This document shows, in pieces, positions 4,196 to 30,669 of a stretch of 64,000 nucleotides of DNA. The stretch is from NCBI RefSeq assembly GCF_022605165.1, contig NC_063072.1, forward strand, positions 558,001-622,000, in the 5' to 3' direction. This DNA comes from Purpureocillium takamizusanense (taxonomy: Eukaryota; Ascomycota; Sordariomycetes; Hypocreales; Ophiocordycipitaceae). Within the stretch, counting starts at the first letter, position 1. Each line of letters opens with the position of its first letter. Under the pieces are notes generated by a model. The model worked only from the letters and a program-made list of their open reading frames with translations. It had not been told where the DNA came from and did not search any database. A program made the position numbers and the translations under genes.

Positions 4196-5499
4196 GATGA
4201 CCAAGTAGATGGTGTATGAGAGCGTTTTTCTCGAAGGTAGATGTTCGTGAGTGGATTGAATAGACGCACAATTACAACAAGAGGAGGCTTTGGCAATGAT
4301 GGCAAGGTATCCGGACAACATGAAACTCAAGTTAGTTCAATGATGAAGGGCACGCTGTTACTGTTTGCACTGCAGTTCCCTCACCAACCTGAGAAGCCCA
4401 ATCGGATTCTGACACGTCTGCTTGTTGTAGGTCATATCCCGTTCCATTCAACGTGGTGGGCGATCTCACCAATATCCAGGGTGAGAGCTTTGCCATGCAA
4501 GTGCCGTGACCTGCGTCCTGCGACTCGCACTGGACCGGTGTATGACGTGAAGTGCGGCAAGGGTGTCAGGTCACTCACAGGCATACGTATCGCCAACAAC
4601 AGCCGCATTGCGATATTGGGGCGGCTTGTGGTTTCTTGTGGTGTCCGGGGCTTCTGCCGTGCCGCCCTTCATGCCCCCAGCCGCATGTGGCTGTATTACT
4701 GTTGGTGCTACACCCGTGTGCGGGCAGAAATTTATTCCTCGCCCCGTGTTGCATAATCAGCTCGCGTAACGATACGTTTGATAGAGGTGGTGAAACCGGA
4801 TTCATGTCCGGTGGTTGTTCCATGTTTCTCCTTTCGGTATTGCGCATTCAGTTCTGTTCGTGTTGGGAAAAGCTAAAGATGGTGTAAGAGGCTGTACTGA
4901 GTTTGTTCAACAAGAAGATGCCTTCGTGTTGTCTATCTAAAGCCAAGGAAGGAAAGGAGAGGAAAGGGGCCGCCAGGCTGCAAGCTTGTGCTCCAGGATC
5001 GGCCCAATTGTCGTTGCAGATCGACAGGGGTTTGGGACTGCAGGACTGGCAAAACCGGATCCATATCCCTGGGTATTCGCCCGTGACAAATGGTAAGGGG
5101 TACATACCTATATACTTGCTTTAGCGTGCGAACTCTTATGGATATTACGGCAGGTAACATGAAAACGTGTCTCGGGTTTCCCGGCGAAGTGCTCCTCTAA
5201 TACACAAGGGCTGCTCTGTAAACGGGGCCATGACTCGCCATGACCGGCTTCAATCGCTGTATGGCTGGCGTCCTCCCTGTGGCATGGAGACGCATTGGCG
5301 GTCATCCAGTATTCATCACCTTTTGCAGGCTTCGAAGCCTTAGCGCAAGAATATATATTGAGGTTGGCAAAGATTTAACGCAGGGGACCCCGTAGGACGT
5401 GTCTTGGGCAGGTTGGACAGTCCAGAGACCTTTCTATCTAACGTGACAAGCTTTCTTCACACATCATCACCACACCAGGTCAACGGCAGGATCCATAGG
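4196..5499. promoter_or_regulatory. Shared divergent promoter region
   Basis: About 1.3 kb between the divergent starts of the aminotransferase (minus) and the hybrid synthetase (plus). It would contain both promoters. A TATA-like ATATATATTG lies near 5350, about 150 bases before the synthetase ATG. No gene is supported here. Confidence 0.45.
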
Positions 5500-8400
5500 A
5501 TGGCGTCCATTCCTTCAAAAGACGCACACATGTCACTCAAGGCCTTTAACGACACTGATGATGCCACGACTCTGGGCCATTGCCTCCACCGTCTGGTCGA
5601 GGATCGTGCGGCCTACTGCCCGACAAACCTTGCTCTTACCTGTGCCGACTCCAGTCTCACCTTTCAGGAGCTCAATACTGCCGCAAATCATCTCGCCAGA
5701 GTGCTGGTATGCCAGGGTGTTGGGCGAAATGACTTGGTCGCCGTGGCCCTGGATCGCAGCGTTGGCCTTGTGGTAACGCTGTTGGCGGTGCTGAAGACGG
5801 GGGCCGCGTTTGTGCCCATTGATCCGGAGTTTCCAGCAGAACGCATCAGTCACATGCTCAGTGACGCTACACCAAAGATTGTCGTCGTCTCAGCTGGAAC
5901 AGCGAGGCTTATGAAACTCTGGTCAAATATCTGTTTGTGTGTCGACGAGGAACACGGCCAGTTGACAACGTCACCTGCTCAACGTACCAACCTGGATCTG
6001 GATGTGCAGCCAGACGACCTCGCCTATGTCATATACACGTCAGGCTCAACTGGAAAGCCTAAGGGGGTAGAGATCAGCCATGGGGCATTATGCAATTTGT
6101 TGTTGTCGATGAAGAAGGTACTACAATGCACTTCGGAGGATCGCCTACTGGCCGTGACCACTGTTACGTTCGACATTGCGGCACTAGAGTTGTTCCTACC
6201 GCTACTATGCAGCGCCACGACGGTAGTTGCTGAGTCACGACAAGTCAAAGATATAGGCGCACTGCGTGGGGTGCTGGAGAGCCAGGCCATCACCATGATG
6301 CAAGCAACGCCAGCGTCTTGGCAGATGCTCCTGGACTCGGGCTGGCGTGGTACTTCTTCGCTAAAGAAAATACTCTGTGGTGGTGAGGCGATGACGGAAC
6401 AACTCGGCACCCGCCTCCTTGCATGTGGTGGTGCCGTGTGGAACTTATACGGACCGACTGAAGCCACGGTGTGGGCAAGTGTTTGGAGGGTGCGACCAGC
6501 CGAACATGTCATCATTGGCAAACCTTTAGCCAACTACCGACTCTACGTTCTGGATGAGTCTCTGGCGCCTGTTCCGCCTGGAGTCTCTGGTGACCTCTAT
6601 ATAGGCGGCGCCGGCCTGGCTCGCGGCTATCACAACAAGCCAGAGCTCACACGAGCCAGCTTCCTCGACAGCGGGCGTGAAGACTTGAGGGGACGCATAT
6701 ACCACACCGGCGACATCGCCTGCTTCTCTGCCAACGGGGAGCTGAGAGTGCTAGGCCGCGCGGATAACCAGGTGAAGGTCCGAGGCTATAGGATAGAGCT
6801 AGGTGATATTGAGGCAGCCATCACAAGCCACCCGGGTGTCTCTGGGGCGGTGGTTGTCGCTCGCAAAGATCAGCTGTTTGCGTACTGCATCCGGTGTGTC
6901 GGCCACAACTATGAGACGCCTTCGCACCAAGACAAGGCACTGGGAACGGCAGTCACCATGGACGCCATGCTCCGCCCATGGTTGGCCAAATACCTCCCAT
7001 CCTACATGATGCCCGCTTTCTTTGTGGAATTGGAGGCCTTTCCCTTGACGCCCAACAACAAAATCGACCGCAAGGCTCTCCCTAGCCCGTTTGCTGAGCA
7101 GAGCCTTGATGCCTCTCGAGAATCTTCCTTTGAGTGCGGCACGGGCTCTGTCGGGGAGCTTGAGCGACGCATCGTGGCCATCTGGGCCCGCGCTCTGGAT
7201 CATGGTAGCATCAGTACCAAGGACAACTTTTTTCAGGTTGGTGGCAACTCTCTACGCCTCATCCAAGTCCAGGCCGAACTGGAAAAGCTTCTAAGCCGAC
7301 CAATTTCGACAGCTAAACTGCTCGAGCACTACACCGCCGAAGCATTAGCGGCATATCTGGTTGGAGGCGACATGAACAGCCCAGTGCAGATCCCGTCCAC
7401 AGGTTATGGACCCGCGGCTGCAACAGGTGAAGTCGATGCCATCGCCATAGTCTCTCTGGCGTGTAGGCTTCCTGGAGGTGTTACTACGCCTGAAGAATTC
7501 TGGAAGCTGCTTGATGCAGGTGGTGACGCGATTACGGACGTACCTGAGGATCGGTGGAATGCTACCGAGCTATACGATCCGGACCCAGATGTCCATGGGA
7601 AAACATATTGTAGCCAGGGGGGATATCTCAGCTCCATCGACTCCTTCGACATTTCATTCTTTGGCATCTCTCCCCGGGAAGCGCAAGAAATGGATCCCGT
7701 GCAGCTGCTGGTGCTGGAGATGTGCTGGGAAGGGCTCGAACGAGCCGGCTATCCGCTCGAGAAGCTGCGCGGAAGCCGCACAGGCGTGTACATTGGCGTC
7801 AGCAACATGCCAGCCCACCAAAACTATACCCGGCCCTTGGAAGACCTCAACGGATATACCGCCACGGGCAGCTCCGGCGCAACGCTCTCGGGCCGCGTGT
7901 CCTATGCGTTGGGCCTGGAGGGGCCTTCCATGACGGTAGATACGGCGTGCTCGTCTTCGCTAGTAACGACAGACCTTGCCTGTGCAGCGTTGCGCCGCGG
8001 TGAATGCGATATGGCGGTTTCGTGCGGAGTTACGCTGATGCTTACCCCTGGGCTTCATGTGGAGTTTTCTCGGTTGCGAGGCATATCGCGGGACGGGCGG
8101 TGCCGAGCCTTTTCGGACGATACAAATGGAACTGGCTGGGCCGAGGGGTCGACAGCTGTGGTGCTTCGGAGGCTCCCAGACGCCCAGCGCGACGGCGACG
8201 CGATCCGCGCCGTCGTGCGAGGCAGTGCCGTTAACCATGGGGGACGGAGTGCGAGTTTGACGACACCCAGCGGCCCGGCTCAACAGCGACTTATCCGTGA
8301 TGCTCTTGCCTCTTCGCGCCTCGAGCCAGGTGACATTGACTATATCGAGGCACATGGCACCGGAACCAAGTTGGGGGATCCGATCGAAGGGGAGGCGTTG

Positions 8401-11400
8401 GCCGCCGTCTTTGGGAGCCATTCAGGGGCTGATAGGAGTCCGCTATGGGTCGGCTCGGCCAAGTCCAACATTGGCCATACCCAAGCAGCCGCAGGCCTGG
8501 TGGGCGTCCTGAAGGTTGTTTTGGCGCTGGAGCATGAGCTGATTCCCCGTACGTTACACATTAGCGAGCCCACGAGAGCGGTGGACTGGCAGGGCGCAGG
8601 CATGGCGCTGGTGCAACAAGAGAGACCCTGGCCGCGTGATGAGCGTCGTCTGCGCCGCGCTGGTGTCAGCTCGTTTGGAATAGGGGGTACCAACGCACAT
8701 GTGGTCATCGAAGAGGCTCCAGTGGGAGTGGAAGCCTTGCCATCAGGTGCCAGCGAGACTGAACTGCCACCGCCGCTGGACTCGCTTCCGTTTCTCATCT
8801 CGGGCCACACAGAAGAAGCCCTGCGTCAACAGGCTACTAAACTGTGGCACTTTCTAGGCGACGACAACATTGATCAAAGTCGCCTTGGTCCTTTAGCCTA
8901 CTCACTGGCCACTACCCGGACACATTTTCGGCATCGGCTGGTTCTCATGGCACAGAGTAAGGCTGCTTTACGGGACCAATTAGCCGCGGCCGCAGTGCGT
9001 CAGGGTGTCCCATCTGTACATACACGCCCCCTGGCCATGCTCTTCACTGGTCAGGGCAGCCAGCTACCGGGCATGGGTCGAGATCTGAGCCAAGTGTATC
9101 CGGTCTTTAGAGAGTCGCTGGAGGTGACGGCCGCTCACTTCACTCTGGAGCGACCACTGCTCGACATCATGTGGGCAGACGCCGATAATCCAGACGACGT
9201 TGCATTGCTCAACCGCACCGACTTTGCCCAAGCTGCTCTTTTTACTCTTGAGGTTGCCCTCCTTCACTTATGGCGGAGTTGGGGCGTGGAGCCTCATGTC
9301 GTCCTGGGGCATAGCCTCGGCGAGTTCGTCGCTGCGTACGCTGCTGGGATACTGGATCTTTCTAGTGCTTGCCGGCTCGTTGAGGCGCGTGGTCGTTTGA
9401 TGCAGACCTTGCCCCGAGGCGGCGGCATGGTCTCCGTAGAAGCCCATGCTAGCGAGGTAGCTGCCATGATCGACGAGTTGGGCTTCAACGGCATGATCGA
9501 TGTAGCCAGTCATAATACGCCGACGCAAACCGTCATATCGGGGGACATTGACATCACGGAGAGGATGGCTGCGTATGTCGCCGGACTAGGCCGCAAAGTT
9601 AAGCCTCTCAATGTCTCTCATGCTTTCCATTCGCACCACATGGATGGCATGCTCGCTGAGTTTCGAGCCGTTGTCGAAACGATCCAGTTCTACCCACCCA
9701 GACTCGCCATCGTCAGCAGCGTCACCGGCCAGCTAGCCGAGCCAGGCGAGCTCGAAACGCCTCACTACTGGGTGGAACAGGCCCGAAGGGCTGTCCGCTT
9801 TAGTGATGCCATCGCCGCCATTCTCGACATGGACATTGGCATATTCGTTGAGCTGGGGCCCCAGCCTGTACTATCTGGCCTCGGCGCGGCATGTCTAATA
9901 AGTGCCAGCAAGCACAGGCCTTGTACCTGGCTGCCATCTCTCCATGGTCGCAAAAGCGGCACCTTGACCATTCAAGGTAGTGTCGTGGCCCTGCACGCTT
10001 TGCATGTCCCAGTGGACTGGGCCGCCTACTTCAAGCCTTTTGGCTACGTGAGAGTCGAGCTGCCGACGTATGCTTTTCAGCGCGAGCGCGTTTTGTCACT
10101 CTCCAGGTCTCTACCACAGGGGGGTCAGTCTGATGTAAATGTTGGTGGAAACATGAACCTGAAGAGCGAGAGCAGTATGTCGCTTCCACTGAGCGGAAAC
10201 ACCGACCTTCGCATCTCACTGCGGTATGCTGCTCCCATGCAGCACGACACAATCGTCCAGTCTGTCGTCAGGGAAGTGGTGGCCGACACACTAGGCATTT
10301 CGTCCACCGACGAGGTTGACATTGACAGAACCTGGCAGGACAACGGCATCGACTCGGTGATGGAGCCTCAGATGCGCACCAGATTGGCGGCTGCGACGGA
10401 CATGACCTTACCAGCCAACGTCACGACTGAGCATCCCAACCTCAGGGCCTTTTCCGAGTACCTTTTACATTTAATGCGGAGAGACTCAGTCGATTCCGAG
10501 TCTACCGAAACGGGATCCAGTTACTTCGACTCGCCCACACAAGGCTCTGCCATCTTTTCAGAGACGGAACTCTCGCGAACAGGGGAGCTTGAAGACAGCT
10601 TGACGTTTGATAACGCTGTCCAGCATCCAGGGGTGCCAAAGTCGGTGTTCCTCACGGGCGGTACAGACTTTGTGGGCGCCTTTCTGCTGCAGAGTCTTCT
10701 CGAACTGGGTATTACGGCTCACTGTCTTGTGCGGGCTGAAAACACAGGCGAGGTCATGGAGCGATTAGAGGCCACCCTCGAAGGTTACAGCTTGTGGAGG
10801 CCACAATACAAGCCCCTCGTCAGGCCTGTGGTCGGGGACATGACGCAGCCGAAATTCGGCTTGAGTGCGGAGGCTTTCAGACACTTGGCAGACAATGTCG
10901 ACGCCATCTGCCACTTTAACACTTTAGCAGACTATTCTCGACGACCTTGGGACGACTGCATCGGTCCCGATGTGGTGAGCACCCGTGAGGTTCTGCGCCT
11001 GGCATCGCAAGGAAGTAGTAAATCTATCCATTTCATCTCGACCTCCGCCACCCCGTCGAAGCATTTAGACCTGGACACATGCCCTGATGAGAGACAACAG
11101 AGTCATGTCACCTCCAAGTCGATGGCAGAGCACATGGTGGCAGAGGCGCGACTGCGCGGCGCCAACGCTTCCATATACCGACTGCCCTTGATCTTTGCAT
11201 CTTCAGATACTGGCATCTACGAGCCTGGCATCGAAGACGTCCTGCACTGTCTCATTGTTGGGAGCTTGGAGACGGGCAGGTACCCGAGCCTGGATGCCGA
11301 CCTCTCTGCCGTGATGCCCGTTGACTACCTCTGCACAAGCCTCGCGTCCATCATGGTTCAGCAGCCCCGGCTCATGGGCTGTGACGTGGACTTTGAGAAT

Positions 11401-11463
11401 CCACAGGCATTACGGTTTGACGACTTCTTCTCCATGATGGGGGCCGGCGCACACGAGGGCTGA
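5500..11463 (+). CDS. Hybrid NRPS-PKS synthetase A-T-KS-AT-T-reductase, stopped in frame
   Basis: An intronless 1,987-residue multienzyme. Order, numbered from ATG 5500: adenylation domain (A3 TSGSTGKPKG about 175, NLYGPTEATVW about 314, DNQVKVRGYRIELGD about 430); carrier (GGNS, Ser584); ketosynthase (DTACSSS Cys817, EAHGTGTKLGDP, NIGHTQAAAG); acyltransferase (GHSLG Ser1272, HAFHS typical of malonyl-CoA); second carrier (GIDS Ser1619); thioester reductase from about 1718. There is no condensation domain, so this is a starter module that loads an amino or guanidino acid, extends it once with malonate and would release reductively. No ketoreductase or dehydratase is present. The reductase is unusual: the nucleotide loop reads TGGTDFVG with Asp in place of a Gly, and the YxxxK site reads HVTSK with His for the catalytic Tyr. 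TGA at 11461-11463 cuts the reductase; the frame continues. ATG 5500 is chosen because the frame upstream has only a TTG. The order resembles swainsonine synthetase SwnK without its KR. Confidence 0.9.
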   Translation: MASIPSKDAHMSLKAFNDTDDATTLGHCLHRLVEDRAAYCPTNLALTCADSSLTFQELNTAANHLARVLVCQGVGRNDLVAVALDRSVGLVVTLLAVLKTGAAFVPIDPEFPAERISHMLSDATPKIVVVSAGTARLMKLWSNICLCVDEEHGQLTTSPAQRTNLDLDVQPDDLAYVIYTSGSTGKPKGVEISHGALCNLLLSMKKVLQCTSEDRLLAVTTVTFDIAALELFLPLLCSATTVVAESRQVKDIGALRGVLESQAITMMQATPASWQMLLDSGWRGTSSLKKILCGGEAMTEQLGTRLLACGGAVWNLYGPTEATVWASVWRVRPAEHVIIGKPLANYRLYVLDESLAPVPPGVSGDLYIGGAGLARGYHNKPELTRASFLDSGREDLRGRIYHTGDIACFSANGELRVLGRADNQVKVRGYRIELGDIEAAITSHPGVSGAVVVARKDQLFAYCIRCVGHNYETPSHQDKALGTAVTMDAMLRPWLAKYLPSYMMPAFFVELEAFPLTPNNKIDRKALPSPFAEQSLDASRESSFECGTGSVGELERRIVAIWARALDHGSISTKDNFFQVGGNSLRLIQVQAELEKLLSRPISTAKLLEHYTAEALAAYLVGGDMNSPVQIPSTGYGPAAATGEVDAIAIVSLACRLPGGVTTPEEFWKLLDAGGDAITDVPEDRWNATELYDPDPDVHGKTYCSQGGYLSSIDSFDISFFGISPREAQEMDPVQLLVLEMCWEGLERAGYPLEKLRGSRTGVYIGVSNMPAHQNYTRPLEDLNGYTATGSSGATLSGRVSYALGLEGPSMTVDTACSSSLVTTDLACAALRRGECDMAVSCGVTLMLTPGLHVEFSRLRGISRDGRCRAFSDDTNGTGWAEGSTAVVLRRLPDAQRDGDAIRAVVRGSAVNHGGRSASLTTPSGPAQQRLIRDALASSRLEPGDIDYIEAHGTGTKLGDPIEGEALAAVFGSHSGADRSPLWVGSAKSNIGHTQAAAGLVGVLKVVLALEHELIPRTLHISEPTRAVDWQGAGMALVQQERPWPRDERRLRRAGVSSFGIGGTNAHVVIEEAPVGVEALPSGASETELPPPLDSLPFLISGHTEEALRQQATKLWHFLGDDNIDQSRLGPLAYSLATTRTHFRHRLVLMAQSKAALRDQLAAAAVRQGVPSVHTRPLAMLFTGQGSQLPGMGRDLSQVYPVFRESLEVTAAHFTLERPLLDIMWADADNPDDVALLNRTDFAQAALFTLEVALLHLWRSWGVEPHVVLGHSLGEFVAAYAAGILDLSSACRLVEARGRLMQTLPRGGGMVSVEAHASEVAAMIDELGFNGMIDVASHNTPTQTVISGDIDITERMAAYVAGLGRKVKPLNVSHAFHSHHMDGMLAEFRAVVETIQFYPPRLAIVSSVTGQLAEPGELETPHYWVEQARRAVRFSDAIAAILDMDIGIFVELGPQPVLSGLGAACLISASKHRPCTWLPSLHGRKSGTLTIQGSVVALHALHVPVDWAAYFKPFGYVRVELPTYAFQRERVLSLSRSLPQGGQSDVNVGGNMNLKSESSMSLPLSGNTDLRISLRYAAPMQHDTIVQSVVREVVADTLGISSTDEVDIDRTWQDNGIDSVMEPQMRTRLAAATDMTLPANVTTEHPNLRAFSEYLLHLMRRDSVDSESTETGSSYFDSPTQGSAIFSETELSRTGELEDSLTFDNAVQHPGVPKSVFLTGGTDFVGAFLLQSLLELGITAHCLVRAENTGEVMERLEATLEGYSLWRPQYKPLVRPVVGDMTQPKFGLSAEAFRHLADNVDAICHFNTLADYSRRPWDDCIGPDVVSTREVLRLASQGSSKSIHFISTSATPSKHLDLDTCPDERQQSHVTSKSMAEHMVAEARLRGANASIYRLPLIFASSDTGIYEPGIEDVLHCLIVGSLETGRYPSLDADLSAVMPVDYLCTSLASIMVQQPRLMGCDVDFENPQALRFDDFFSMMGAGAHEG

Positions 11464-12576
11464 ATGACCGTTGTGCCTCTTGTTGAGTGGCGGCAGCTTG
11501 TCACGGCGCGCGCTGTGTCGCGTCCGACCGGTATGCTCGCCCATGTTGCTGATTTATTGTGCCGGTTTACCGATGAAGCCATGCTTGCAACTCTCAAATA
11601 TACGGACTTGAGGAGTGAGCCCATCCCGGGCGACGACCGCATCTGGGGTAATGACCTGTATCCGCCTCCCGTGATTGACGAGACCTACGTCGGCAAATAT
11701 TTGGCTCGCATGGGCACGGAGCGAACGCTGGCATCCAACGACGTCGAGAGCAAGCAACTTGACTTGTTAAGCGCTTCACCACCAACATGGCTTAACCATC
11801 CCTCACACATTATACCTGGAAAATACCCCAAAGCGCTCTCCCCTCCTCGCCGCATCTTAGCCCCTTCCCTCAACTTTTACCCCCCGGATTCCCCACCAAA
11901 CCTCTTTCCATCCGCCCTGAGCTTCTTCACAAGTATTCCGTGGTGCTCCCGTCTGATTCATGATGGTTCGCCCACGTGCGGCCGAATTCCTGGACATGGC
12001 CAGGCCATCACCTTCATCCCTCAGTGCTTCAACCCAGCTAGCTCGCGGCACGAGCAATTCATTGGAGATACACTATCCCACGGGTACAGCAGAGCTGGCG
12101 CCGCCGCCACCACAGAAGAGACGGCAAGCAGCCTCCTCGACAGAAAACAACCCCCTCTACGACACATGCTTTCGCTTTTCCGGCCCAGCGACGACTCACA
12201 TCTCCACGATCCAGCGAGGCCCATCCTGCGCGTTGCTACGTTGTTTGCCTTTGGCGCGGGCACTTCTGGCTATGAAGGCATTCTTCACGGCGGGCTGATT
12301 GCAACGCTGCTCGACGAGAGCCTCGCCATTGTCAACGAACTCAACTCGGCCCTTGGCAAGATAGGCTCCGTGTTTACGACTGTCAGCGTTACGGCGTCCC
12401 TGAATATCAGATTTCTAGCGCCCGTGCCGGTGACCGAAGAAGCCGTGTGCGTGACAACCTGGATAGACGACGTTCAAAGCCGCAACACCATCATGAAGGG
12501 GGAGATGACTGGTTCCAATGGGGACAAGTTTGCCACAGTGGAGAGCGTCTGGGTTGCCGTTGGTGCTGGCAATTAG
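11464..12576 (+). CDS. Reductase C-terminal remnant joined to a hotdog thioesterase
   Basis: This 370-codon frame is in the same frame as the synthetase, separated only by TGA 11461-11463. Its first ~90 residues continue the thioester reductase (VVPLVEWRQL, PPVIDETYVGKYLARMG match the usual end of such domains). The rest is a PaaI-like hotdog thioesterase: FFTSIPWCSRLI, then GYEGILHGGLIATLLDESLA with the HGG turn and Asp/Glu pair of the active helix, then IRFLAPVPV and FATVESVWVAVG strands. Either the thioesterase was a C-terminal domain of the synthetase, or it is a separate gene starting at a later ATG such as 11710. A fused form would be odd, because reductase and thioesterase are alternative or editing release activities. 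Role inferred: hydrolytic release or editing of the carrier-bound product. Confidence 0.7.
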   Translation: MTVVPLVEWRQLVTARAVSRPTGMLAHVADLLCRFTDEAMLATLKYTDLRSEPIPGDDRIWGNDLYPPPVIDETYVGKYLARMGTERTLASNDVESKQLDLLSASPPTWLNHPSHIIPGKYPKALSPPRRILAPSLNFYPPDSPPNLFPSALSFFTSIPWCSRLIHDGSPTCGRIPGHGQAITFIPQCFNPASSRHEQFIGDTLSHGYSRAGAAATTEETASSLLDRKQPPLRHMLSLFRPSDDSHLHDPARPILRVATLFAFGAGTSGYEGILHGGLIATLLDESLAIVNELNSALGKIGSVFTTVSVTASLNIRFLAPVPVTEEAVCVTTWIDDVQSRNTIMKGEMTGSNGDKFATVESVWVAVGAGN

Positions 12577-15373: not shown

Positions 15374-17523
15374 ATGAGAGTCCCACCATTACAAGCCGTC
15401 CTGCTGCCTTATGCAGCGAGCGCAGCAGGCGGCGACGTCACCACCCCGACGGCGACGCTCGACTCGGGCCCCGTGTTCGGCGCCTCGACGTCTCTGCCGG
15501 GCGCCATGGGGCCGGTGGCCAAGTTCCTCGGCGTGCCGTACGCCGCGTCGCCGCCGGGGCGGTTCCGGTTGCCGCGAGCGCCGGACAGGTGGACGGCGGC
15601 GAGGAACGCGACGGCGTTTGGGGACTCGTGCGTTCAGTATGTGCCTAGGACGGGTGAGTGTGTTGGCGTTTCTGTTCTTGCTCTTCAAGTCCGGCACAGC
15701 CAGCGCAATAAACGGCTGGCAATTTCTCTCCATCCACTTACACGGACTGTATTGATGGAGGGATGGCTCTGTTCTCGCCTCGACAATCCTAGAAGCTCAC
15801 CGACATGCGCGTTCATGTGCTAACCAACTTAGACGTTGGCCCTGGACAGGACATTCTCGAGAAGCTCTTCAACCGGCATCCGCCCGAGAGCGAAGACTGC
15901 CTGCACATGACGCCTTTGCGCCGGCATGGCCAGGCCCGCCGTCGGGGCGGCCCGTCGTCGTCTTCATCCCCGGCGGGGGATGGACCATGGGCAACGGCCT
16001 GATTGACCTCTCCGGCTTCGCCGGGTACGAGGACATTGTTGCCTTTACGTTCAACTACCGGACCAACAGTGAGTGTCTTGTTCCAACCCTCCCTCCTTCC
16101 TCTGATACTCGTCCCAACTCCCCCTCGGCGCTGCCGTGTCCTCGCCCGTCTCGACGCATCCTGGCCCAGAACCTCAGGGCTGACGATCCATATGTGTGAT
16201 GCCGCAGTCTTTGGATTCCCCAACGCGCCGGACATCCCCCTTGAGCAGCGCAACCTCGGCTTGCACGACCAGCGGCGCGCCCTCGCGTGGGTGCAGGCCA
16301 ACGCGCGCGCCTTTGGCGGCGACCCGGCCAAGGTCACCATCTGGGGCGAGTCGGCGGGCTCCATGTCTGTCGACCTGCACATGCACGCCGCCGCCGCCGC
16401 TCTCCCAGAAGCGAAAGCAGATCGTGGGCCGGCGCCAGCGCCCTCGTTCCGCGCCGCCATCATGTCGAGCGGCGAGTACTCCTTCGGCATGCTCTCCCTG
16501 GCGAGCCGCCCCGACGACAGCCGCAGCTGGGACGCCGTCGTCGAGCAGGTCGGCTGCAGCGGCCGCCGCGGAGCCGACAAAGATGTACCAACGGCACGGC
16601 GCGGCGGCACGCTCGCATGCATGGGCAACGTGTCCACCGGGGCGCTTCTACAGGCAATGCACCGCGCCGGCGTGGCGTACAGCCCCATCGCCGATGGGAT
16701 CACGGTGCCGTCGGGACGGGCGGCGGCGTGGCGGCAGGGGAGGACGGCCCGGGTGCCCGTCCTGTCCACGACCATGGCCGAGGAAGGGCGCGCGCTGGTG
16801 AACCGCAACGTGACCATGGAGCGGTTCCTCGAGGTGTACCTCCCGCAGCCGCTCGTGTCTGCGGCGCAGCGGGACGCCATCTTGAAGTACTACCGGGATG
16901 GTGTAGGGAGGGGAAGGAGGAGGAGAGGACCCGCGCTGGAGACGGACTTTGATGTCGCGGCGGCGATATACACCGCCTTTCACTGGCAATGCCCGATGCG
17001 GCTTCTCGCGCGTGCGTCCGCCTCGGTGCCTGCTGCTGACGACGACGACGACGACGACGTGGCGAGGAAGGAGAAGAAGAAGCAGCCGGTCTGGCGCGGG
17101 TACTTCAACGCCTCCATCGCGGAGCTCCTGCCGCCCGAGTTCCACTGGCTGGGCAAGTTTCATGGCGCGGACGTGCTACTAGCGTTCTTCTCGCCGTCCC
17201 TCTCGGCGGGAGGAGAGGGGGCAGCAGGAGGAGGAAGAGGAGGAGGAGGCGGGAAAGGGGGACCCGCGGCGCTCACGCCGCAGCTGTATGCCTTTGCGCG
17301 CTACTTCCGCGGCATGGTCGGCGCCTTTGTGCGCAACCCGGCGGCGGGGCCGGGCTGGCCGGCGACGGGCGAGCAGGCGTATCTCCCGTTCGACGTGGCG
17401 AGCCTCGGGGATGTGGGCGACGTCAAGACCGGGGGGGCGACGCCCGTCAACGGGACGGAGCTGGACGCGAGCTGTGCGCTGTACGAGGACATTTACCCGC
17501 TGCTGGAGAAGGTCATGGGGTGA
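15374..17523 (+). pseudogene. Type B carboxylesterase/lipase with a one-base frameshift
   Basis: An alpha/beta-hydrolase of the carboxylesterase family, probably secreted (hydrophobic N-terminus MRVPPLQAVLLPYAASAAG). Exons 15374-15653, 15833-16068 and 16208-17523 fit GTGAGT donors and TTAG/GCAG acceptors and restore conserved joins (YVPRTG-DVGPG and FNYRTN-IFGFPNA). Visible blocks: FLGVPYAASPPGRFR, ESEDCLH, VVVFIPGGGW (oxyanion hole), [11 protein letters not shown] (nucleophile Ser), and [10 protein letters not shown] (probable His). In exon 2 the frame changes by one missing base at about 15910, between ESEDCLHM and the block leading to VFIPGGGW; both sides are conserved, so the gene is broken or the base was lost in assembly. 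Low-complexity inserts (Asp run near 17040, Gly run near 17230) are unusual. It adjoins the peptide cluster and could be unrelated to it. Confidence 0.8.
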
Positions 17524-17841: not shown

Positions 17842-18820
17842 TCAGCATTCATTCTGCGAGATCACAGGACAGACACGCCCATCATCAACCGACTTACCCA
17901 ACGTCGGATGCGACAATATCGGACCCGTCAAGCTCGGGACGTAATGCTCCTTCGACCAAGCCATCAAACTGTCCCAGCTCCGACACTGATGCGTCGTCCT
18001 CATGCTGGGCCACGGCCACCTGTAGTCGTCCTTCCACTCGTACGTGTGCAGGGACACGTCGCCGTGGCACATGACGACCTGGCGGAGCAGGTCGACGCAG
18101 TGGTCAAAGTGCTCCCGCTGGTCCGCCAGCGGGTTCGGGTCGTGGTAGTAGTCCGAGTAGTACGACTTGCGCATCTTGTTCACGCAGTGCAGCGTGTGAA
18201 AGACGTCGAGCGTCGCGAGGTAGCCGCCCTGGGCGTCGTTGAGGGGCACGGAAGTGGCGTTTGCCTTGTCGAGGTCTTCTTTTTGGACGCGGAGGTTGTT
18301 GTCTTTGACGACGACCTTCTTGTCAGCGTGGCGCGCTCTCTCCGTCGGGGCTTGGGGGGGAGGGGGACTTCCGTACATCTCAACAGGTCCTCCCATGCTG
18401 CGTCCTGCTCTGGTCGCGGCGGGCCTCTGTATTTGCCATTGTCTGCGAGATTGTGTACGATTGTTTGCTTCTCGTATTTTATGGCTGCTCTTGCGGGAGC
18501 TACAACTTCAGATTAGCAATCACATTTATCTGCGCATTTTCTTTCTTCATCTACTTACAATAGACCGCGGCAGTTTCACAGTCGCATTTCTTCGCATTTA
18601 TTCTTACGTTCCATGCGTAAAGTGTGACGGTAAGGACGCTGTAAAAGACAAAGGCGGCGATGTGGAGGTGCGTTATCAGTCGCTTGTTTCGCCTAGATGT
18701 GGACGGCTGTGATGATGATAATAAGAGCTGTTCCTGGGATTTATCTTGACTCAAAAGACTCTCTGTGTCTTGCGAGTCAGTAGGATCACTGTCCTTTTCC
18801 AGAGATCTCTCTGAATACAT
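17842..18820 (-). CDS. UstYa-family oxidase 1, with an apparent frameshift
   Basis: UstYa-type (DUF3328) proteins are membrane-anchored oxidases needed for cyclisation of dikaritin peptides such as ustiloxin. Exon 1 is 18820-18559 (87 codons, start MYSERSLEKD) with one membrane segment (ITHLHIAAFVFYSVLTVTLYAW). The intron 18558-18500 has GTAAGT and TTGTAG. Exon 2 is 18499-17842 and gives SPARAAIKYE, YRGPPRPEQDAAWEDLL, then VFHTLHCVNKMRK and HFDHCVDLLRQ, the two HxxHC motifs, and TTHQCRSWDSLMAW. Between DAAWEDLL and the first HxxHC the frame must shift by one base at the G run 18354-18360 (C run in the gene), so either a base is missing in a homopolymer or the gene is broken. Expected product about 306 residues. 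It is the left gene of the precursor cluster, same strand as the precursor. Confidence 0.8.
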
Positions 18821-19515
18821 CGTGTTGCCTGGCAAAAAGCACACAACACAGATGTTGCGAGCTGTGGTGATCGCAACTGGTGAGCGATGATGGCACGACT
18901 TTGGCGAGCTGCGTACATACGAACAGGCTGACTGACTCCGGATGCAACAGTGCCGACGCACTGCCATTAGCGCTTACCTCGGACCCGTTGCCTCGCCTCG
19001 CCTCGCGTAGCACACGTCGCAACACTTATTAGCCGCATAGCTATCATAGTATCGTTCGTTGGCGGAACTTGAAACCCCACATGCTGCACTTCTACGCGCG
19101 GAGGTGCGGGGTCAAGTGGCAACTCGTATAGTCTTTGAGACTTCGAGCGGCGCGGTATTTGACTATATCTGCAGTAGGATCGCGCTAGTTCCTTCTGCAA
19201 GGTTACATGCAGCGCTACGATCTTGGAGGGACAGGTCCTATGATTGGAATCCATTATGCTCCGACGTGCTGTCTTGGAAGAGTGGGACAGATAGTACTAT
19301 CGAGGAGTCGTTTTGGTCATGGTCTTGTACAGTCACACTCTTATCACATTGGCCGCTGGGTTATGGAGTTCTACGCATGGCAAGCTTGGGTTTTCTCGAG
19401 TTGTATTCGCAAAGACTAAGTTTCGGCTCGCCACCACGCGTTTCATGGTAGTGATGATCTAAGCTCGTACATCATTTCCTGTCACTCAGCAGCGCCATGT
19501 AGTGAATCGCGGCTT
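18821..19515. other. Intergenic between UstYa 1 and the precursor
   Basis: About 0.7 kb upstream of UstYa 1 and downstream of the precursor. It holds the promoter of UstYa 1. A plus-strand open frame at 19059-19451 has no recognisable motif. Confidence 0.5.
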
Positions 19516-19974
19516 TCAAGCATCGGAACGCTTCTTCCCCCACCCAGCCTGGTTGTTGTAAAGAATATCAGGGCTCTGAGCCTCAGAGCGCTTCCCCCAA
19601 CCGGCCTGGTTGTTGTAGAGGACGTCCGGGCTCTGGGCCTCGGAACGCTTCTTCCCCCAGCCAGCCTGGTTGTTGTACAGAACGTCAGGGCTCTGCGCCT
19701 CGGAGCGCTTCTCGGAGCGCTTCCCCCAGCCGGCTTGGTTGTTGTAGAGGATATCGGGGCTCTGGGCCTCGGAACGCTTGCCCCAACCGGCCTGGTTGTT
19801 GTAAAGGACGTCGGGGCTCTGGGCCTCAGATCGCTTGCCCCAGCCGGCCTGGTTGTTGTACAAGATATCGGGGCTCTGAGCCTCGGAGCGCTTGCTGTCG
19901 GCGCTCTCTGGCTGAACCGGCGCAGCGATGGCGGCACCGAATAGCGCGAGGACGATAGGCAGAACAGCCTTCAT
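19516..19974 (-). CDS. Secreted repeat peptide precursor (dikaritin/KEP-like)
   Basis: A 152-residue preproprotein. Start ATG 19974 gives a signal peptide (MKAVLPIVLALFGAAIA) cut near AAPVQ. A short leader then leads to six repeats of an about 19-residue unit, SEAQSP-D(I/V)LYNNQAGWG, each bounded by KR. Repeats 1, 3 and 6 have Ile, 2, 4 and 5 Val; repeats 4 and 6 have an extra Lys before KR; an extra SEKR lies after repeat 3; the protein ends KRSDA. This layout (secretion signal, Kex2 sites, multiple identical cores with a Tyr) is that of dikaritin and epichloecyclin precursors, and three UstYa-like genes lie within 3 kb. The mature core probably includes LYNNQAGWG, with Tyr and Trp as possible crosslink residues. 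An unmodified secreted peptide or pheromone is the alternative; it does not resemble the known fungal alpha-pheromones I can recall. Confidence 0.9.
   Translation of the reverse strand: MKAVLPIVLALFGAAIAAPVQPESADSKRSEAQSPDILYNNQAGWGKRSEAQSPDVLYNNQAGWGKRSEAQSPDILYNNQAGWGKRSEKRSEAQSPDVLYNNQAGWGKKRSEAQSPDVLYNNQAGWGKRSEAQSPDILYNNQAGWGKKRSDA
19537..19887 (-). repeat. Six in-frame core peptide repeats
   Basis: Coding repeats of about 57 bases, six copies, within the precursor gene. Near identity at DNA level suggests recent expansion or gene conversion. One spacer is enlarged by a duplicated SEKR. Confidence 0.92.
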
Positions 19975-21268
19975 TTTGGCGTTTCTTTTTCTTTTTCTTT
20001 CAAGATGAACAGATGAGTGTTTGGAAAAGAGTTGTGCTGCTGTGATATCGCGGTGTTGCTCTTGCAAAGACAAGACAGACACTATGGACGTACTGGATAT
20101 CTATAGCAGTATGAGTATCTGACCACGAATTCCCTAAAGCAGAAAGCCTCAATCTCGGAACGTTGCAATGCAGCGCGCTGGCGGGGACCCTGCGTCCTGT
20201 CCGACTGTTGTGTCACCCGCCATGATCACCGTCTCGTCTCGTCTCGTCCTTGATCTCAGAATACCCCTCCATCCTCTACGCGGGGTAGAATTCGAGGAAC
20301 TAACTAGCCGAGGAAAAGATGGGCGCTGGCGATCCTTCGTGTAAGCCACGTCCTCATTGACTGTCCAGTGGAGTGTCCGGCTCTTCCTCACCAAGATGCG
20401 TCCTGCACTGCACATGCAGTAAGACTAGTTTACCTCTCCAGACCTATGCGTCCAGTCGTACCACTTACCCCCATTTATCCGGATATTTTGATCACCACGC
20501 GCTTGCGTGATTCCATCTCAAACTGCCGCCGGTCGACCGACCTCAATTGTCCTTGACATCATCAGAGGTTGGCATGGGAGAGAGCTCGGTTCGGCTTAGG
20601 CCATATGGACTTCATTCATGTTGGGGTCCGAAAGTTGTCTATTGAGGCTGAGGGGGCAATACTATGCTCCAGGATAGAAGTCGCAATTGCCATTGACATT
20701 TTGCTTATTTATTCTTCTTACGCGCGTCTGTGAGTGAGCGATTGTCTCACATAGCGTACGCGAGGTTGACCAGTTGATGCAATCCTTCTGCGTCGAGACG
20801 CCATCCTACGTCTGCAACTACCCATAGCGCTTACCGGACTCTACATGCCGTGACCAATAGCCACCCGAACCCAACTCAGTGACGTGAAGGAGATCTCACA
20901 CCAGTGCGATGCAAGGCTTGTTCTATACGCCGTCGGGCAGGATGCCACCTTCTTAAAGTAGAAAAGATGCAACGTTCCGAGAAGATGGGCTTATGGGCGC
21001 CGGGTGGGAATCAATCAGGCTCTCGTGGTGCTTCCCTGCTCACACAGTACATGCCGCACGGTACCGTATGGGCGAGTAACTAGATGCTTGCACGAACGTA
21101 CTCTGGACCAGCTTACACAGCAACCGACTTCTTGCTTGCGTGTGCTTTGTGTTGGATTGGCTCAGAGAAACACTCAACGCCGCGAGCCATCTCCAGTCTC
21201 TTTTGCTAGGAGATAGTCGAGGTTCATCCAGGGGAGTTCTCCATTGAGCTTTTTGAGTCCCTTTCACA
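19975..21268. promoter_or_regulatory. Divergent promoter region, precursor and UstYa 2
   Basis: About 1.3 kb between divergent starts of the precursor (minus) and UstYa 2 (plus). No gene supported. A pyrimidine/purine tract (CTTTTTCTTTTTC-like) lies at 19983-20000 in the precursor leader. Confidence 0.45.
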
Positions 21269-22182
21269 ATGATGAATCGCAGCACCAGTGATCGAGCCTC
21301 GGATGAGGTGCCTTTCCTAGCCGACGAAGAAAAGGATGCGTACACAACTTCGAGAAGGCTTTCAAGGCGAGAAGCAAGGTGGGCGCGTCTCTTGCCGTAT
21401 TCTGGCGCGCTCAACGTGACGCTGCTGGTGGCCCTGCTCGCCACATGGATCTTGCAAAGGCACGACCCGAACAAGGCGTATATCCCAAATGAAATATATT
21501 GTAAGCATTTTGAATCTCTTTCTATGAAGGGCAGCATACTGACATGTCTTCAGCGCCCGCACTGTCTGCGGTCGAGTATGAAACAGTTGTCTTCACCGGT
21601 GGGCTGCGGGGTGACAAGTCAAAGTTCCAAGGGTCCTCCAAAGAGGTGGACGCCGTATGGGATGAGATGTACAATGGTTTGTTCTGTCACCGAACCGTCG
21701 GGCTTTATGGTATATGAAACTCATCACTTCTATAACTTCCAGACGTGTTGATATCCGCAATATCCCCCGAGTCGGCCGCGAAGCTCCCCAACGCAACCAC
21801 GCCGTTCACGTACGACACCGACCACTACATCGTGGAGCTCGACGTCTTCCACCAGCTGCACTGCCTCAACATGCTGCGCAAGCTCGTGTACCCCGCCGCC
21901 TACCCGATGGACCTGACGTCGGAGTCGGAGGAGGCGGCCGACAACATCTTCCACATGGAGCACTGCTACGAGCAGCTGCGGCAGTCGCTTCAGTGCTCGT
22001 CGGACATTAGCACCATATACTGGGAGTGGAGCGACAAGAAGCAGAGGATGTTTGGCAACGTGCACACGACGCACACGTGCAGGAACTTTGACAAGATTCG
22101 GGACTGGGCGGTAGAGCACCATGCCACGACGGACTTGGACTTTGCCAAGCACGTAATGGGAGCGCCGTTGCGACACGATTGA
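21269..22182 (+). CDS. UstYa-family oxidase 2
   Basis: Three exons read cleanly: 21269-21500, 21554-21676 and 21743-22182, with GTAAGC/GTTTGT donors and CAG acceptors, giving 264 residues. ATG 21269 is followed at once by a second ATG at 21272. The N-terminus is cytosolic and charged; one membrane segment follows (LNVTLLVALLATWIL). Then come SPALSAVEYETVVF, the EVDAVWDEM block, and both family motifs: VFHQLHCLNMLRK and HMEHCYEQLRQ (HxxHC twice), with TTHTCRNFDKIRDW near the end. These motifs are thought to bind copper. The gene is intact and divergent from the precursor, so it is the best candidate for its oxidative cyclisation. Confidence 0.9.
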
Positions 22183-22371
22183 GAGAACCAATAGCAGTAA
22201 ACTGTGATGGCGAAATTCATTATATGATATTATATCTCTGTAAACGCTCATGATCGGTGCCTGGTGTAATTTTGCGCAAGTGACACACCGGGTGTTAGTC
22301 ACCGGCGAAGAAGACCCCGTAGTGCCAACATCAAGTCGCCCGGCTTACATGGGCTTCAAAGTGAGGAGTTT

Positions 22372-23061
22372 CTATTTTGCGCACTTTGGATACTTGACAA
22401 ATATCTTGGTGCCCGAGTCCTTCATGCCCTCTGGGTGACCTCCTATCATCTTGACACAGTGGCTCGTGTGGTGATAATTGGCCGTGTACGAGTCCAGCTC
22501 CTGCGTCGGGTCCAGCAGGATCCTATGCAGCCTCTTCCAGACGTACATGCAGTGGGCGACGTGCCAGTCAAACGTGGTGGTGAAGTGCCCGTAGTCGCCG
22601 GCCCCGAGCTCCAACATGGTGAGGTTTCGGCCCGCGGCGGTCTCGTAGGGCCACTGGCGGCCCCGGTACATGTCCCTCGCGTCCTGCGCGTCGTCGTCGG
22701 TGAGGCAGGACGCCGGCAGCCACGAGTGCAGGACGATGCTGTACAGGCAGCCCCGCGCCCGGGCGTCCTCGGGCGAGTTGCCGCAGTCGCCGTGCGACCA
22801 GGAGAGGGGGAGGCCGGTGTCGGGATCGGTGCCGTTGCGCGCGTGCGGGAGGTTGCGCGCGTGCGAGTGCTGTGCTGGCATCGTGAGGGCCGAATAGAGG
22901 GCCGTGGCCGCGCCCATGGTGGCGAGGCCGACGAGGAACGAGCCCAGCGCTGAGACCCATCCTCGGTGTTGCCGTCGCCGCCGCAGGGGCCGTTGGTATC
23001 CCCCTTCTCCATCTTCGCTGGCGTCACTATCAACTCGGGCGTACTTGATTTCTTCGACCAT
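22372..23061 (-). CDS. UstYa-like membrane protein 3, divergent type
   Basis: A single-exon, 229-residue protein with start MVEEIKYARV. A charged cytosolic N-terminus is followed by a membrane segment (VSALGSFLVGLATMGAATALYSAL). The luminal part has CGNSPEDARARGCLYSIVLHSWLP, then FDWHVAHCMYVWKRLHR and YHHTSHCVKM, two HxxHC motifs as in UstYa proteins but in a different framework (the region before them lacks the usual GPPS and D-AW blocks). This second type of UstYa-like protein is common in ascomycetes. It converges on UstYa 2 (189 bases between stops). Probable role: oxidation of the precursor repeats. Confidence 0.82.
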   Translation of the reverse strand: MVEEIKYARVDSDASEDGEGGYQRPLRRRRQHRGWVSALGSFLVGLATMGAATALYSALTMPAQHSHARNLPHARNGTDPDTGLPLSWSHGDCGNSPEDARARGCLYSIVLHSWLPASCLTDDDAQDARDMYRGRQWPYETAAGRNLTMLELGAGDYGHFTTTFDWHVAHCMYVWKRLHRILLDPTQELDSYTANYHHTSHCVKMIGGHPEGMKDSGTKIFVKYPKCAK

Positions 23062-24236: not shown

Positions 24237-24712
24237 ATGAAGCGTCCTCTCCTCTCCTTGTTTCCCCTAGCGCTTGCCGGTTTGACGTGGGCTCTCCAAG
24301 GCGATGAGCTCTGGAAGACGATCGAGACATCGAAAGTCGACGCTGAAGCTGAAGTGTGGCAGCGGAATAGCGACACCATCTTGGGGGTATGTATGAATGA
24401 GCCCTGTCAGTCAATACATAGGGCCACGCAATGCCAAATTGACTTCATGCAGAATTGTGACCACAACACTCACAAGTGTAGCTTCAAATGGGCACTTGAT
24501 CCTGTTCCATCAGTAAGCAGCGAGGGACAGTGCCATGTCTCCTGGCTCATCATTCTTCGTCCCGGCGAAGCTACTTGCGTCACCACGGTATGTTCACGAA
24601 CTATTTATTGCCTATAAGCGCGAATTCTGAACGTACGCTCTAGAAGTGTGCGACGGGAAGATGTGGTGTCACACAGTCGACGTGGGGAGAGTGGATCGCA
24701 GTCTGCTTGTAG
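24237..24712 (+). CDS. Small secreted cysteine protein, paralogue A
   Basis: Exons 24237-24386 (exactly 50 codons), 24453-24587 (45) and 24644-24712, giving 117 residues. Introns begin GTATGT and end CAG/TAG; all are phase 0. The first intron is 66 bases and has no stop in frame, so an unspliced form could also be translated. Signal peptide MKRPLLSLFPLALAGLTWA. Conserved with paralogues B and C: exon 1 length, the KWALDP block in exon 2 (WALHP/WATHP in the others) and KCATGRC at the start of exon 3. Cysteines number seven. No function is known to me; small secreted cysteine proteins of this size in ascomycetes include effectors and antimicrobial peptides. Confidence 0.75.
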
Positions 24713-25632
24713 TTGGCACGCCGCGTGAAAGGGGTCCTACGCACAACGAGAAGAACAACAAGAAAAAATATAGTGACTTAGGACTCATAACATGGATGTA
24801 ATTTGACACCTCGTCTATGTGTTCGAAGCGCGGTGACGATGTTAGGCTAGGTTGCTCCGATACATGCGGCAGGTGTTTCTGAAAGAACCCCCCCCCCCCT
24901 TATGGCTCTCGATATCCCCGAACCCTTCTAAAGATGGAGTCCTCGTCATCGTGATGCCATGCTGGCCATCCTCAGGGGCAACCGCCCTACGTAACCCTCT
25001 ATGACTCCTAATACGTACCTTGATAGGATGTCATTACTGTCTGCCAGCGACAGCAAGTGGCATGTAAGGATAGCAGCCACGGTCAAAGCGTACGCAGAAC
25101 TCTGGCGGCAGTTATAATCTTCACTCCCTCTCCAGTCTTTTGACCCCAGGATACATCATTAAACTCTAAAGTAATCGAAATCAAATAGATTTGAGCACTA
25201 TGAATATCACGGTGTCAAATCCAACCCCCCACCCCCCTCGCGAGATAACTCGGTCTCCATCAAGCCTGCCTATACGTAAAAGCCGTGGTATGCTGCGTAT
25301 GGTACTGCTGCGATGTGAATAGTGATAATGATACCATTATCTAGTGCATCTCGCCCGGGTGGAGCTACAATGGCCCCGTGCATTCAACAGGAACTATAGG
25401 CATACGTACGTCTATCAGGGCTCCCACCTACATCGTACGCAATGGATAATATATTGCTCTCATTGCGGCCAATTTATTGCTGACCTTACGTTTACATATT
25501 ATTTCTTTATGTTCATGCTCATATAATGACGCGAATATATAAAGACGCCTATAGTGCCCTCGACCCCATATCATTAGTTAGTTCAAGAACCGCTATAAAA
25601 CCCCCCAACTCTTGAGACATCCGACGGCAATA
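24713..25632. repeat. Upstream part of the duplicated unit, less mutated copy
   Basis: Noncoding sequence before paralogue B. Bases 25170-25620 match 26345-26710 before paralogue C (for example CTCGCCCGGGT-GAGCTA-AAT-GCCCC and ACTATAGGCATACGTACGTCTAT). This copy keeps C and G where the other has T and A. TATATAAAGACG at about 25536 is a probable TATA element. Confidence 0.75.
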
Positions 25633-28879: not shown

Positions 28880-29538
28880 TTCCTTTGGCAGTCCTACGCG
28901 ATACGCCCTGGCCGCCGCCGCCGCCGCAGCACCGCAGCAGTATCATCGTCATCATCATCACGATTCCCAGTGGTCCTCTTGGGAAAGCTGGTCTGCCCCC
29001 CGCCCCCCTTGAAGAAGACGCGATACCACGCGCTGTCGTCATAGATCAATGGCCGCGGGAGAGAGAGGGAGAAGTCTCGACTCCTCTTCCTCCATCTCTG
29101 AGCGATCCGTCTTTAGCGCGGCGAGCACACGCGGGGGACATATGGTGGTGGAGGGCCTTAGGATCGCCCGCTTTTTTTTTTTTTGTTTACGCCGTCTGGC
29201 GATGACCGACGTCATGAACGCCTCACCGCGACGACACCGACGCCAGACCACGGTGCAGTGCCGTGCCCCCCCTCGGTGCTATTTGTCGGGAGTATATATA
29301 TCTGATGCAGCCCATCTACCCTGATGGACACTGCAGAGATCGCCCCAGCTCCAGATCAAAGGAGTGTAGCACCGCAGCATCCAAGGCACACGAGACCTGC
29401 CCCGACATCTACCCCTGAATACACGCACCCCCTTTTGAACGACCCCCTTGACCCGGCTGCCGGATCGAGCAAGGTACATCATATATACACACACATTGGA
29501 AGACTACGTACAACGATAGTAGCGATCCGCCCGCAACC

Positions 29539-30669
29539 ATGGGCTACCCCGACACCTTTGAGGGCTTCTGCGTCGACGGCCCCAAGACGTGGAGCACGTT
29601 CCGGCGGGCCGAGCTCACGCCCAAGCCGTTTGGCGACCGGGACATCGACGTGCAGATCGAGGCGTGCGGCGTGTGCGGCTCCGACGTGCACACCATCACG
29701 GGCGGCTGGGGCGACTACGAGGGCCCCCTGTGCGTCGGCCACGAGGTCGTGGGCCGGGCGGTGCGCGTCGGTAAGGGGGTCACCACCTCGGGCATCAAGG
29801 AGGGCGACCGCGTCGGCGTCGGGGCTCAGGTCCACGCCTGTCTCCGCTGCCGGCTGTGCACCGCCCGGCCGCGCACCGAGGAGTGCTACTGCCCGCACGA
29901 GATGGTGGACACGTACAACGCGCAGTACCCGGACGGGTCGTGGGCGCATGGCGGCTTCGCGAGCCACATCCGCGCCCACGACTTCTTCACCTTCAAGATC
30001 CCCGACGCGCTCGAGACGGAGGCCGTCGCCCCGCTGCTGTGCGCCGGCATCACCACCTACTCGCCGCTCGTGCGCGCCGGCGTCGGCCCGGGCAAGCGCG
30101 TCGGCGTCGTGGGCATCGGCGGGCTCAGCCACCTCGCCCTGCAGTGGGCCAAGGCCCTCGGCGCAGAGACGTACGCCCTCACGCACTCGCCCGGCAAGGC
30201 CCACGACGCGCGCAAGCTGGGCGCCAAGGGCGTCATCGTGACGAAGGCCGCGGGGGCTAAGGGCGATGGGGACAAGGACGCCAGCGCCTGGGCCGACGAC
30301 TGGAAGTACACCTTCGACTTCATCCTCAACTGCGCCGACGCCACCGACAAGTTCCACCTGCCCACCTACTTCTCGCTGCTCAAGCCCGGCTGCGACTTCC
30401 ACATGGTCGGCATCCCGGACAAGCCGCTGCCCGAGCTCAGCGCCGGTGCCTTTGCCGCCAACGGCGCCAAGCTGACGGGCAGCCACCTCGGCAACAACCA
30501 GGAGATGAAGGACATGCTGCAGCTGGCCGCCGACAAGGGCGTGCGCGCCTGGGTCGAGACCATTGACATTTCCGCGGACGGCTGCAAGCAGGCCGTCGAG
30601 CGCCTCAAGGAGAACAAGGTCCACTACCGCTTCACCCTGACGGGCTTTGACAAGGCGTTTAAAGCCTAG
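29539..30669 (+). CDS. NADP-dependent zinc alcohol dehydrogenase (ADH6/CAD type)
   Basis: A 376-residue medium-chain dehydrogenase, close in order to yeast Adh6/Adh7 and plant cinnamyl alcohol dehydrogenases, reducing aldehydes with NADPH in the cytosol. Catalytic zinc ligands: CGVCGSDVHTITGGWG (first Cys) and GHEVVGRAVRVG (His-Glu). The structural zinc lobe is CLRCRLCTARPRTEEC (C-x2-C-x2-C-x8-C). The cofactor loop is VGVVGIGGLSHLALQWAKALGAE. Length and domain order are normal and the gene is intact without introns. ATG 29539 sits in CCGCAACCATGG, a good fungal context, with a TATATATA-type element about 245 bases upstream. Confidence 0.93.
   Translation: MGYPDTFEGFCVDGPKTWSTFRRAELTPKPFGDRDIDVQIEACGVCGSDVHTITGGWGDYEGPLCVGHEVVGRAVRVGKGVTTSGIKEGDRVGVGAQVHACLRCRLCTARPRTEECYCPHEMVDTYNAQYPDGSWAHGGFASHIRAHDFFTFKIPDALETEAVAPLLCAGITTYSPLVRAGVGPGKRVGVVGIGGLSHLALQWAKALGAETYALTHSPGKAHDARKLGAKGVIVTKAAGAKGDGDKDASAWADDWKYTFDFILNCADATDKFHLPTYFSLLKPGCDFHMVGIPDKPLPELSAGAFAANGAKLTGSHLGNNQEMKDMLQLAADKGVRAWVETIDISADGCKQAVERLKENKVHYRFTLTGFDKAFKA

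Follow-up and report, generated by a model that had tools for sequence, protein, structure and literature searches.

A probable KEP-plus-UstYa peptide cluster in Purpureocillium takamizusanense and a family of double-HxxHC genes found beside UstYa genes

The window analysed here is a stretch of 64,000 nucleotides from the fungus Purpureocillium takamizusanense (positions 558001-622000 of contig NC_063072.1, hereafter C5; the genome comprises 35.57 Mb in 14 contigs). Its intron-bearing genes, UstYa genes and Kex2-type precursors are those of a filamentous fungus. It carries a compact group of four genes, one encoding a precursor of the type called Kex2-processed repeat protein (KEP) and three encoding proteins with a double HxxHC motif. 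The precursor gene occupies 19516..19974 on the minus strand of the window, and UstYa1 (17842..18820, minus strand) lies head-to-tail behind it. UstYa2 (21269..22182, plus strand) is divergent from the precursor gene, with which it has a common upstream region of about 1.29 kb (19975..21268, taken from the gene ends). A UstYa3-like gene (22372..23061, minus strand; UstYa3 below) converges on UstYa2. The original prediction had placed a dikaritin cluster with three UstYa-type genes at 17842..23061, and this span is correct: it runs from the last base of the UstYa1 stop codon to the first base of UstYa3. The single-exon genes contain no stop or frameshift and both spliced models (UstYa1 and UstYa2) are open.

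The precursor coding sequence (19974..19516, minus strand) is a single uninterrupted exon of 152 codons, none of them for cysteine. The protein has a hydrophobic, signal-peptide-like start (judged by hydropathy only; best 19-residue value 2.08, at residue 3), a short pro-region ending in KR, six units and a tail, KKRSDA. The units, each of 17 codons (19537..19887, minus strand), are copies of SEAQSPD[I/V]LYNNQAGWG separated by KR or KKR, with one extra KRSEKR. Units 1, 3 and 6 carry Ile and units 2, 4 and 5 carry Val. The original description of a secreted six-repeat precursor with Kex2 sites agrees with this organisation. An independent tandem-repeat detection returned 6.1 copies of 57 bp with 77% matches.

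The repeat peptide is under strong purifying selection. Over the 15 pairs of units the mean proportion of silent differences (pS) is 0.55 and that of replacement differences (pN) 0.022, a ratio of 0.04, and the variable columns fall 2/0/10 on codon positions 1/2/3. A single residue of the 17 varies (Ile/Val), whereas random placement of the same changes (n = 5000) alters 7.8 residues on average and never fewer than 3; in the remaining five reading frames 5 to 9 of 16-17 residues vary. Since silent change is high and replacement change low, the copies diverged long ago while the peptide, including its spacer, was kept. A chance repeat is ruled out by this almost wholly silent divergence, and a gene in another frame by the fact that only the precursor frame keeps its residues. 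No KEP-like frame arose in dinucleotide shuffles of the whole window (n = 30). The real sequence has three, namely the precursor and two that by eye are of low complexity (29306-30238 and 54506-55204).

The genome contains no second strong match to the precursor (E 1.8e-97 for the precursor itself and 0.485 for the one other match). LYNNQAGWG, back-translated into a degenerate DNA pattern with Leu as CTN, hits five of the window copies and no other place in the genome; the first copy escapes because its Leu codon is TTG. The core strings were not found in the papers searched, supplementary tables apart, where an earlier listing is possible. Repeats of alpha-type pheromones carry a WC..CW motif (WCxxxGQxCW). 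The absence of Cys rules out such a pheromone precursor here. A genome search for the true pheromone with the WCxxxGQxCW pattern likewise gave no match.

Both direct neighbours of the precursor gene belong to the UstYa family, PF11807. UstYa1 (292 aa; E 4.7e-53) and UstYa2 (264 aa; E 3.3e-48) match nearly the entire profile. Their splice models, obtained by enumeration, contain introns at 18558-18500 and 18376-18336 for UstYa1, the second being uncertain, and at 21501-21553 and 21677-21742 for UstYa2. The HxxHC motifs begin at residues 175 and 204 of UstYa1 and at residues 155 and 189 of UstYa2, and are followed by further cysteines (C218, C246, C284 and C292 in UstYa1; C203 and C231 in UstYa2). 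Each of the three window proteins has one best N-terminal hydrophobic stretch, a helix starting at residue 49 in UstYa1 and at residue 44 in UstYa2. In UstYa3 the hydropathy is 1.54, just below the usual 1.6 mark, and a structure model of low to middling confidence predicts a long N-terminal helix (29-60). The charge before the stretch is +4, +5 and +6 and that after it +1, 0 and +1 (UstYa1, UstYa2 and UstYa3, respectively), a pattern that fits an N-terminus in the cytosol and a domain in the lumen. Comparison of UstYa2 with solved structures gave nothing credible (best E 0.2). A structure model of its last exon (mean predicted local distance difference test score, pLDDT, 47) places the motifs on helices and is too weak for a fold search. 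The highest identity of UstYa2 is to a UstYa protein encoded at 587-589 kb of contig C9 (47% of 139 aligned residues), whose gene has the same divergent layout and adjoins a core with LY..WG.

UstYa3 (229 aa, single exon) also carries both motifs, at residues 167 and 198. The statement that three genes here encode double HxxHC motifs, with two motifs in one open frame in each, is therefore sound; that all three are of UstYa type is borne out by PF11807 membership for UstYa1 and UstYa2 and not for UstYa3. The latter matches no Pfam family at E 0.001, and six members of its family gave no listed PF11807 match at E 10 either, where, however, the HMMER filters remove most matches weaker than about 0.1. 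A profile comparison of the UstYa3 family with UstYa gave a probability of 6.8% (E 0.0053) and, in a second run, 18.9% (E 0.0012), with both HxxHC motifs lined up. UstYa3 would thus be at best remotely related to UstYa. Solved structures gave nothing at E 1 for the family, and the UstYa3 model (pLDDT 61), again with the motifs on helices, is too weak for a fold search. Ahead of the motifs, three cysteines are invariant in the family (C93, C105 and C119, in the arrangement CG..GC..C).

Genome searches with three members of this family gave 6, 7 and 6 matches and define at least seven genes: that of the window, one at C14:40.2 kb, a tandem of three at C9:425.7, 427.0 and 428.7 kb (spanning 425.7-429.5 kb), one at C9:12.1 kb, whose match crosses stops, and one at C6:1622 kb. 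Together the zones within 5 kb of PF11807 genes cover 0.55% of the genome and hold six of these seven genes; with three of the six in tandem, this amounts to four separate loci. Such closeness argues for a role shared with the UstYa enzymes, whatever the descent of the family, and this link is the least expected part of the analysis and the most worth following. An oxidase role for every member is argued against by two of the six members read: both motifs are degraded in that at C9:426 kb, and that at C9:427 kb has HTDYC as its second motif.

Around the cluster, 130 open frames of at least 70 residues lie between 11.4 and 32.3 kb. Of these, 74 were scanned against Pfam at E 0.01; the other 56 mostly overlap other frames, and genes split by many introns may escape such a scan. 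The families identified were UstYa, carboxylesterase, zinc alcohol dehydrogenase, alpha/beta hydrolase and 4HBT, together with two weak matches (DUF5543 and DUF959). Among the frames scanned there was no tyrosinase, methyltransferase, flavin oxidase or S41 peptidase, which bears out, for these frames, the earlier remark that no methyltransferase, tyrosinase or FAD enzyme is nearby. Nor was there an isoflavone-reductase-like match. A genome-wide search for tyrosinase gave ten matches, none of them on C5. One (C1:1930691-1931406) lies 1.2 kb from a UstYa gene (C1:1932630), which indicates that the search is able to see such neighbours. This is the pairing of ustiloxin-type clusters; no ustiloxin-type repeat precursor was present in the 26 kb read there.

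A neighbouring gene on the UstYa1 side is a carboxylesterase (15374..17523, plus strand; PF00135, E 1.1e-24 on 16003-17520; start placed by eye, without an intron model), possibly an accessory gene or the boundary of the cluster. Further out is a frame of 2033 codons (5362-11460, plus strand) encoding a hybrid of non-ribosomal peptide synthetase and polyketide synthase (NRPS-PKS) with AMP-binding, two carrier, ketosynthase, acyltransferase and terminal NAD-binding reductase domains. Beside it are a class III aminotransferase (2753-4336, minus strand) and a frame with the 4HBT (thioesterase) fold (11464-12573, plus strand). This group looks like another biosynthetic cluster, at a distance of a few kb. 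The nearest regulator that we came across is a pair of Zn2Cys6 transcription factor frames (47211-49680, minus strand; PF00172 and PF04082), about 24 kb from the cluster.

Taken together, these features make it probable (roughly 0.8) that the four genes form a small cluster for a ribosomally synthesised and post-translationally modified peptide (RiPP), of the KEP-plus-UstYa kind. Under the broad definition of a dikaritin, a KEP together with UstYa (PMC10512285), the genes fit the dikaritin assignment of the original prediction: there is a tandem-repeat precursor with Kex2 sites and there are PF11807 genes adjoining it. It does not extend to the original set, that of ustiloxin and phomopsin, with its tyrosinase (UstQ/PhomQ), methyltransferase, S41 peptidase and YxIx core. 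The ustiloxin and phomopsin systems resemble the present one in having a secreted multi-copy precursor with KR sites, a Tyr in the core and more than one UstYa gene. They differ in the core itself (LYNNQAGWG here) and in the three further enzymes, none of which is present in the scanned frames. The asperipin-2a cluster (AprA, AprY, AprR and AprT; PMC6514808) is, as described there, similarly made of few genes with UstYa and no tyrosinase. Its core is FYYTGY and it has one UstYa gene, a reductase and a transporter, whereas we found two PF11807 genes and a divergent relative, with no match to a transporter or an isoflavone-reductase-like protein in the scanned frames. The epichloecyclin precursor GigA (PMC9233826) shares with ours imperfect repeats, KR sites and an internal Tyr preceded by Ile; its products are described as cyclic nonapeptides, and both core and unit length differ here.

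A biochemical parallel is CctR, a DUF3328 protein reported to be a lumenal enzyme anchored in the membrane, which uses O2 and binds two coppers through its HxxHC(x)nHxxHC motif (PMC12435403). All three window proteins have the HxxHC pair and a predicted N-terminal membrane helix, the arrangement of CctR. UstYa1 and UstYa2 also resemble it in their cysteines after the motifs, a likeness of description rather than of aligned sequence. In contrast, the substrate of CctR is a non-ribosomal peptide, and UstYa3 has its three conserved cysteines before the motifs.

The original prediction implied that such an arrangement is rare, which it is not, KEP-UstYa pairs being frequent in fungi and six other precursor-like genes occurring at UstYa loci in this genome. 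In the survey of Umemura (PMC7329392), 7878 KEP precursors are reported from 1345 of 1461 strains, and 1758 of them have UstYa neighbours. Here the genome contains at least 24 UstYa genes in 16 loci, a lower bound reached by merging 35 exon matches by hand. We read 8.5 to 10 kb at each locus for precursors, in two stretches at the start of C9 and with C9:10001-16000 excepted. This gave 24 frames flagged as possible KEPs, of which seven were kept and 17 set aside by eye as low-complexity, as alternative frames of a kept repeat or as pieces hardly alike.

Besides the window precursor, six precursor-like repeat genes were thus kept at five other UstYa loci. They encode AEPDRHQAYI-KR (unit RHQAYI; at least 14 copies) at C9:421 kb, GLDGDLAYNKPASPE-RR (unit DLAYNKPASPE; nine copies) at C1:2587 kb, DTGLYAPANWGT-KR (unit TGLYAPANWGT; four copies, one degenerate) at C9:587 kb, EPSDNKVDSYALRSGWYYT-KR (unit VDSYALRSGWYYT; four copies, one degenerate) at C9:19.5 kb, REYWAFAIKLRD (two copies, weak) at C9:4.7 kb in the same locus, and DDKPVAEGVQGEATVF-KR (unit VAEGVQGEATVF; three copies) at C4:2803 kb. 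All six have a signal-peptide-like reading upstream (read unspliced), and their strings, like those of the window core, were not found in the papers searched, supplements apart. Counting the window cluster, the genome has about seven precursor-UstYa pairs, and the case is convincing that the cluster represents a new example of a large and common fungal peptide-making system, not a new kind. The window core, LYAPANWG (C9:587 kb) and YALRSGW (C9:19 kb) all fit Y-x(4,5)-W. Local alignment of the core with these two, set against shuffles, gave 0.069 and 0.107, respectively, and the value for the C1:2587 kb unit was 0.025; with 21 pairs compared, none of these resemblances is significant.

In the scheme that we infer, the precursor would be secreted into the endoplasmic reticulum, where UstYa1 and UstYa2, each anchored by its single N-terminal helix, would present a dicopper HxxHC(x)nHxxHC site to the lumen. 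They would oxidise the repeated core with O2, probably at Tyr. Kex2 would then cut at KR to release six 17-residue peptides, which may be trimmed further. UstYa3 would be a third, more divergent oxidase or a partner, so that all three proteins might act on the precursor. In asperipin-2a the UstYa crosslink joins a Tyr phenol oxygen to a beta-carbon, and phomopsins have a Tyr to Ile ether (PMC6514808, PMC12186524). With the known UstYa crosslinks running from Tyr oxygen to beta-carbon, the likeliest modification is a Tyr-derived crosslink, at first guess a bond from the phenol oxygen of Tyr10 to the beta-carbon of a nearby residue, for example Ile/Val8. A ring taking in Trp16 is an alternative, suggested solely by the retention of both Tyr and Trp in all six copies. 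UstYa homologues are also reported to desaturate or hydroxylate (PMC10880069, PMC12435403), so that the presence of three enzymes does not imply three rings. It is a tentative and rather unlikely suggestion that UstYa3 represents a second, unnamed family of HxxHC(x)nHxxHC oxidases, marked by CG..GC..C, which together with UstYa would build a crosslink undescribed among fungal RiPPs, for example between Tyr10 and Trp16.

Several observations weigh against a dedicated RiPP cluster. A UstYa tree built from 19 of the 24 genes (the other five, with rows under 110 columns, being left out) gives neither UstYa gene of the window a well supported partner. The node of UstYa1 has a support of 12, and UstYa2 groups with genes at C2:74 kb, C2:2379 kb and C14:44 kb (53 to 68) and not directly with that at C9:588 kb. 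The scanned frames include no dedicated protease, transporter or regulator, and ten of the 16 UstYa loci have no precursor-like repeat in the stretch read. In addition, the NRPS-PKS gene ends about 6.4 kb away, and UstYa genes also serve non-ribosomal products. CctO, CctP2 and CctR belong to the cluster of such a product, cyclochlorotine, and DUF3328 enzymes are described as acting on non-ribosomal peptides (PMC12435403). The UstYa genes could belong to the NRPS-PKS group at 5362-11460, which also has an aminotransferase and a thioesterase-fold frame at its side, and the precursor be incidental. We consider this very improbable, since the UstYa genes flank the precursor rather than the NRPS, from which a carboxylesterase and an open frame lacking a Pfam match separate them, and the six other precursor-like genes of the genome are also beside UstYa genes.

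The product could also be a linear, unmodified secreted peptide (a signal, a pheromone-like factor or an effector), with the UstYa neighbours acting on another substrate. As many as 6120 of the 7878 surveyed KEPs have no UstYa neighbour (PMC7329392), and conservation extends over the entire unit with its spacer, as it would in a 17-residue ligand. Against this, UstYa genes flank the precursor on both sides and the core contains Tyr; for a pheromone-like factor, the lack of Cys excludes the WC..CW type. We therefore judge a linear product improbable. A decayed or silent cluster, with genes intact by eye and no expression, seems to us extremely improbable. It would accord with the lack of a regulator in the scanned frames and of a convincing promoter element in common (the upstream regions share four 8-base strings and their complements, a count made without a control and not used as evidence). 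It accords poorly with single-exon genes free of stops and frameshifts, with open spliced models and with silent-site divergence in the face of an intact protein sequence.

The interest of the RiPP cluster lies partly in numbers: by the count in PMC10512285, the dikaritins reported up to 2022 numbered only five, compared with the 1758 KEP genes with UstYa neighbours in the survey. Being compact, with few accessory genes and a single core of high uniformity, such a cluster lends itself well to testing the action of UstYa enzymes on their own. The UstYa3 family, lacking a Pfam match yet situated beside UstYa genes, provides a lead on partners of dicopper oxidases.

Two further observations concern the surroundings. 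Beyond UstYa3 lie two adjacent frames (about 24237-24713, which has no Pfam match, and from about 25633; both plus strand) for small secreted-looking proteins that are alike by eye. Elsewhere in the genome, UstYa genes crowd the starts of contigs: the first 21.5 kb of C9 hold five and the first 8 kb of C2 hold two, positions that are perhaps subtelomeric.

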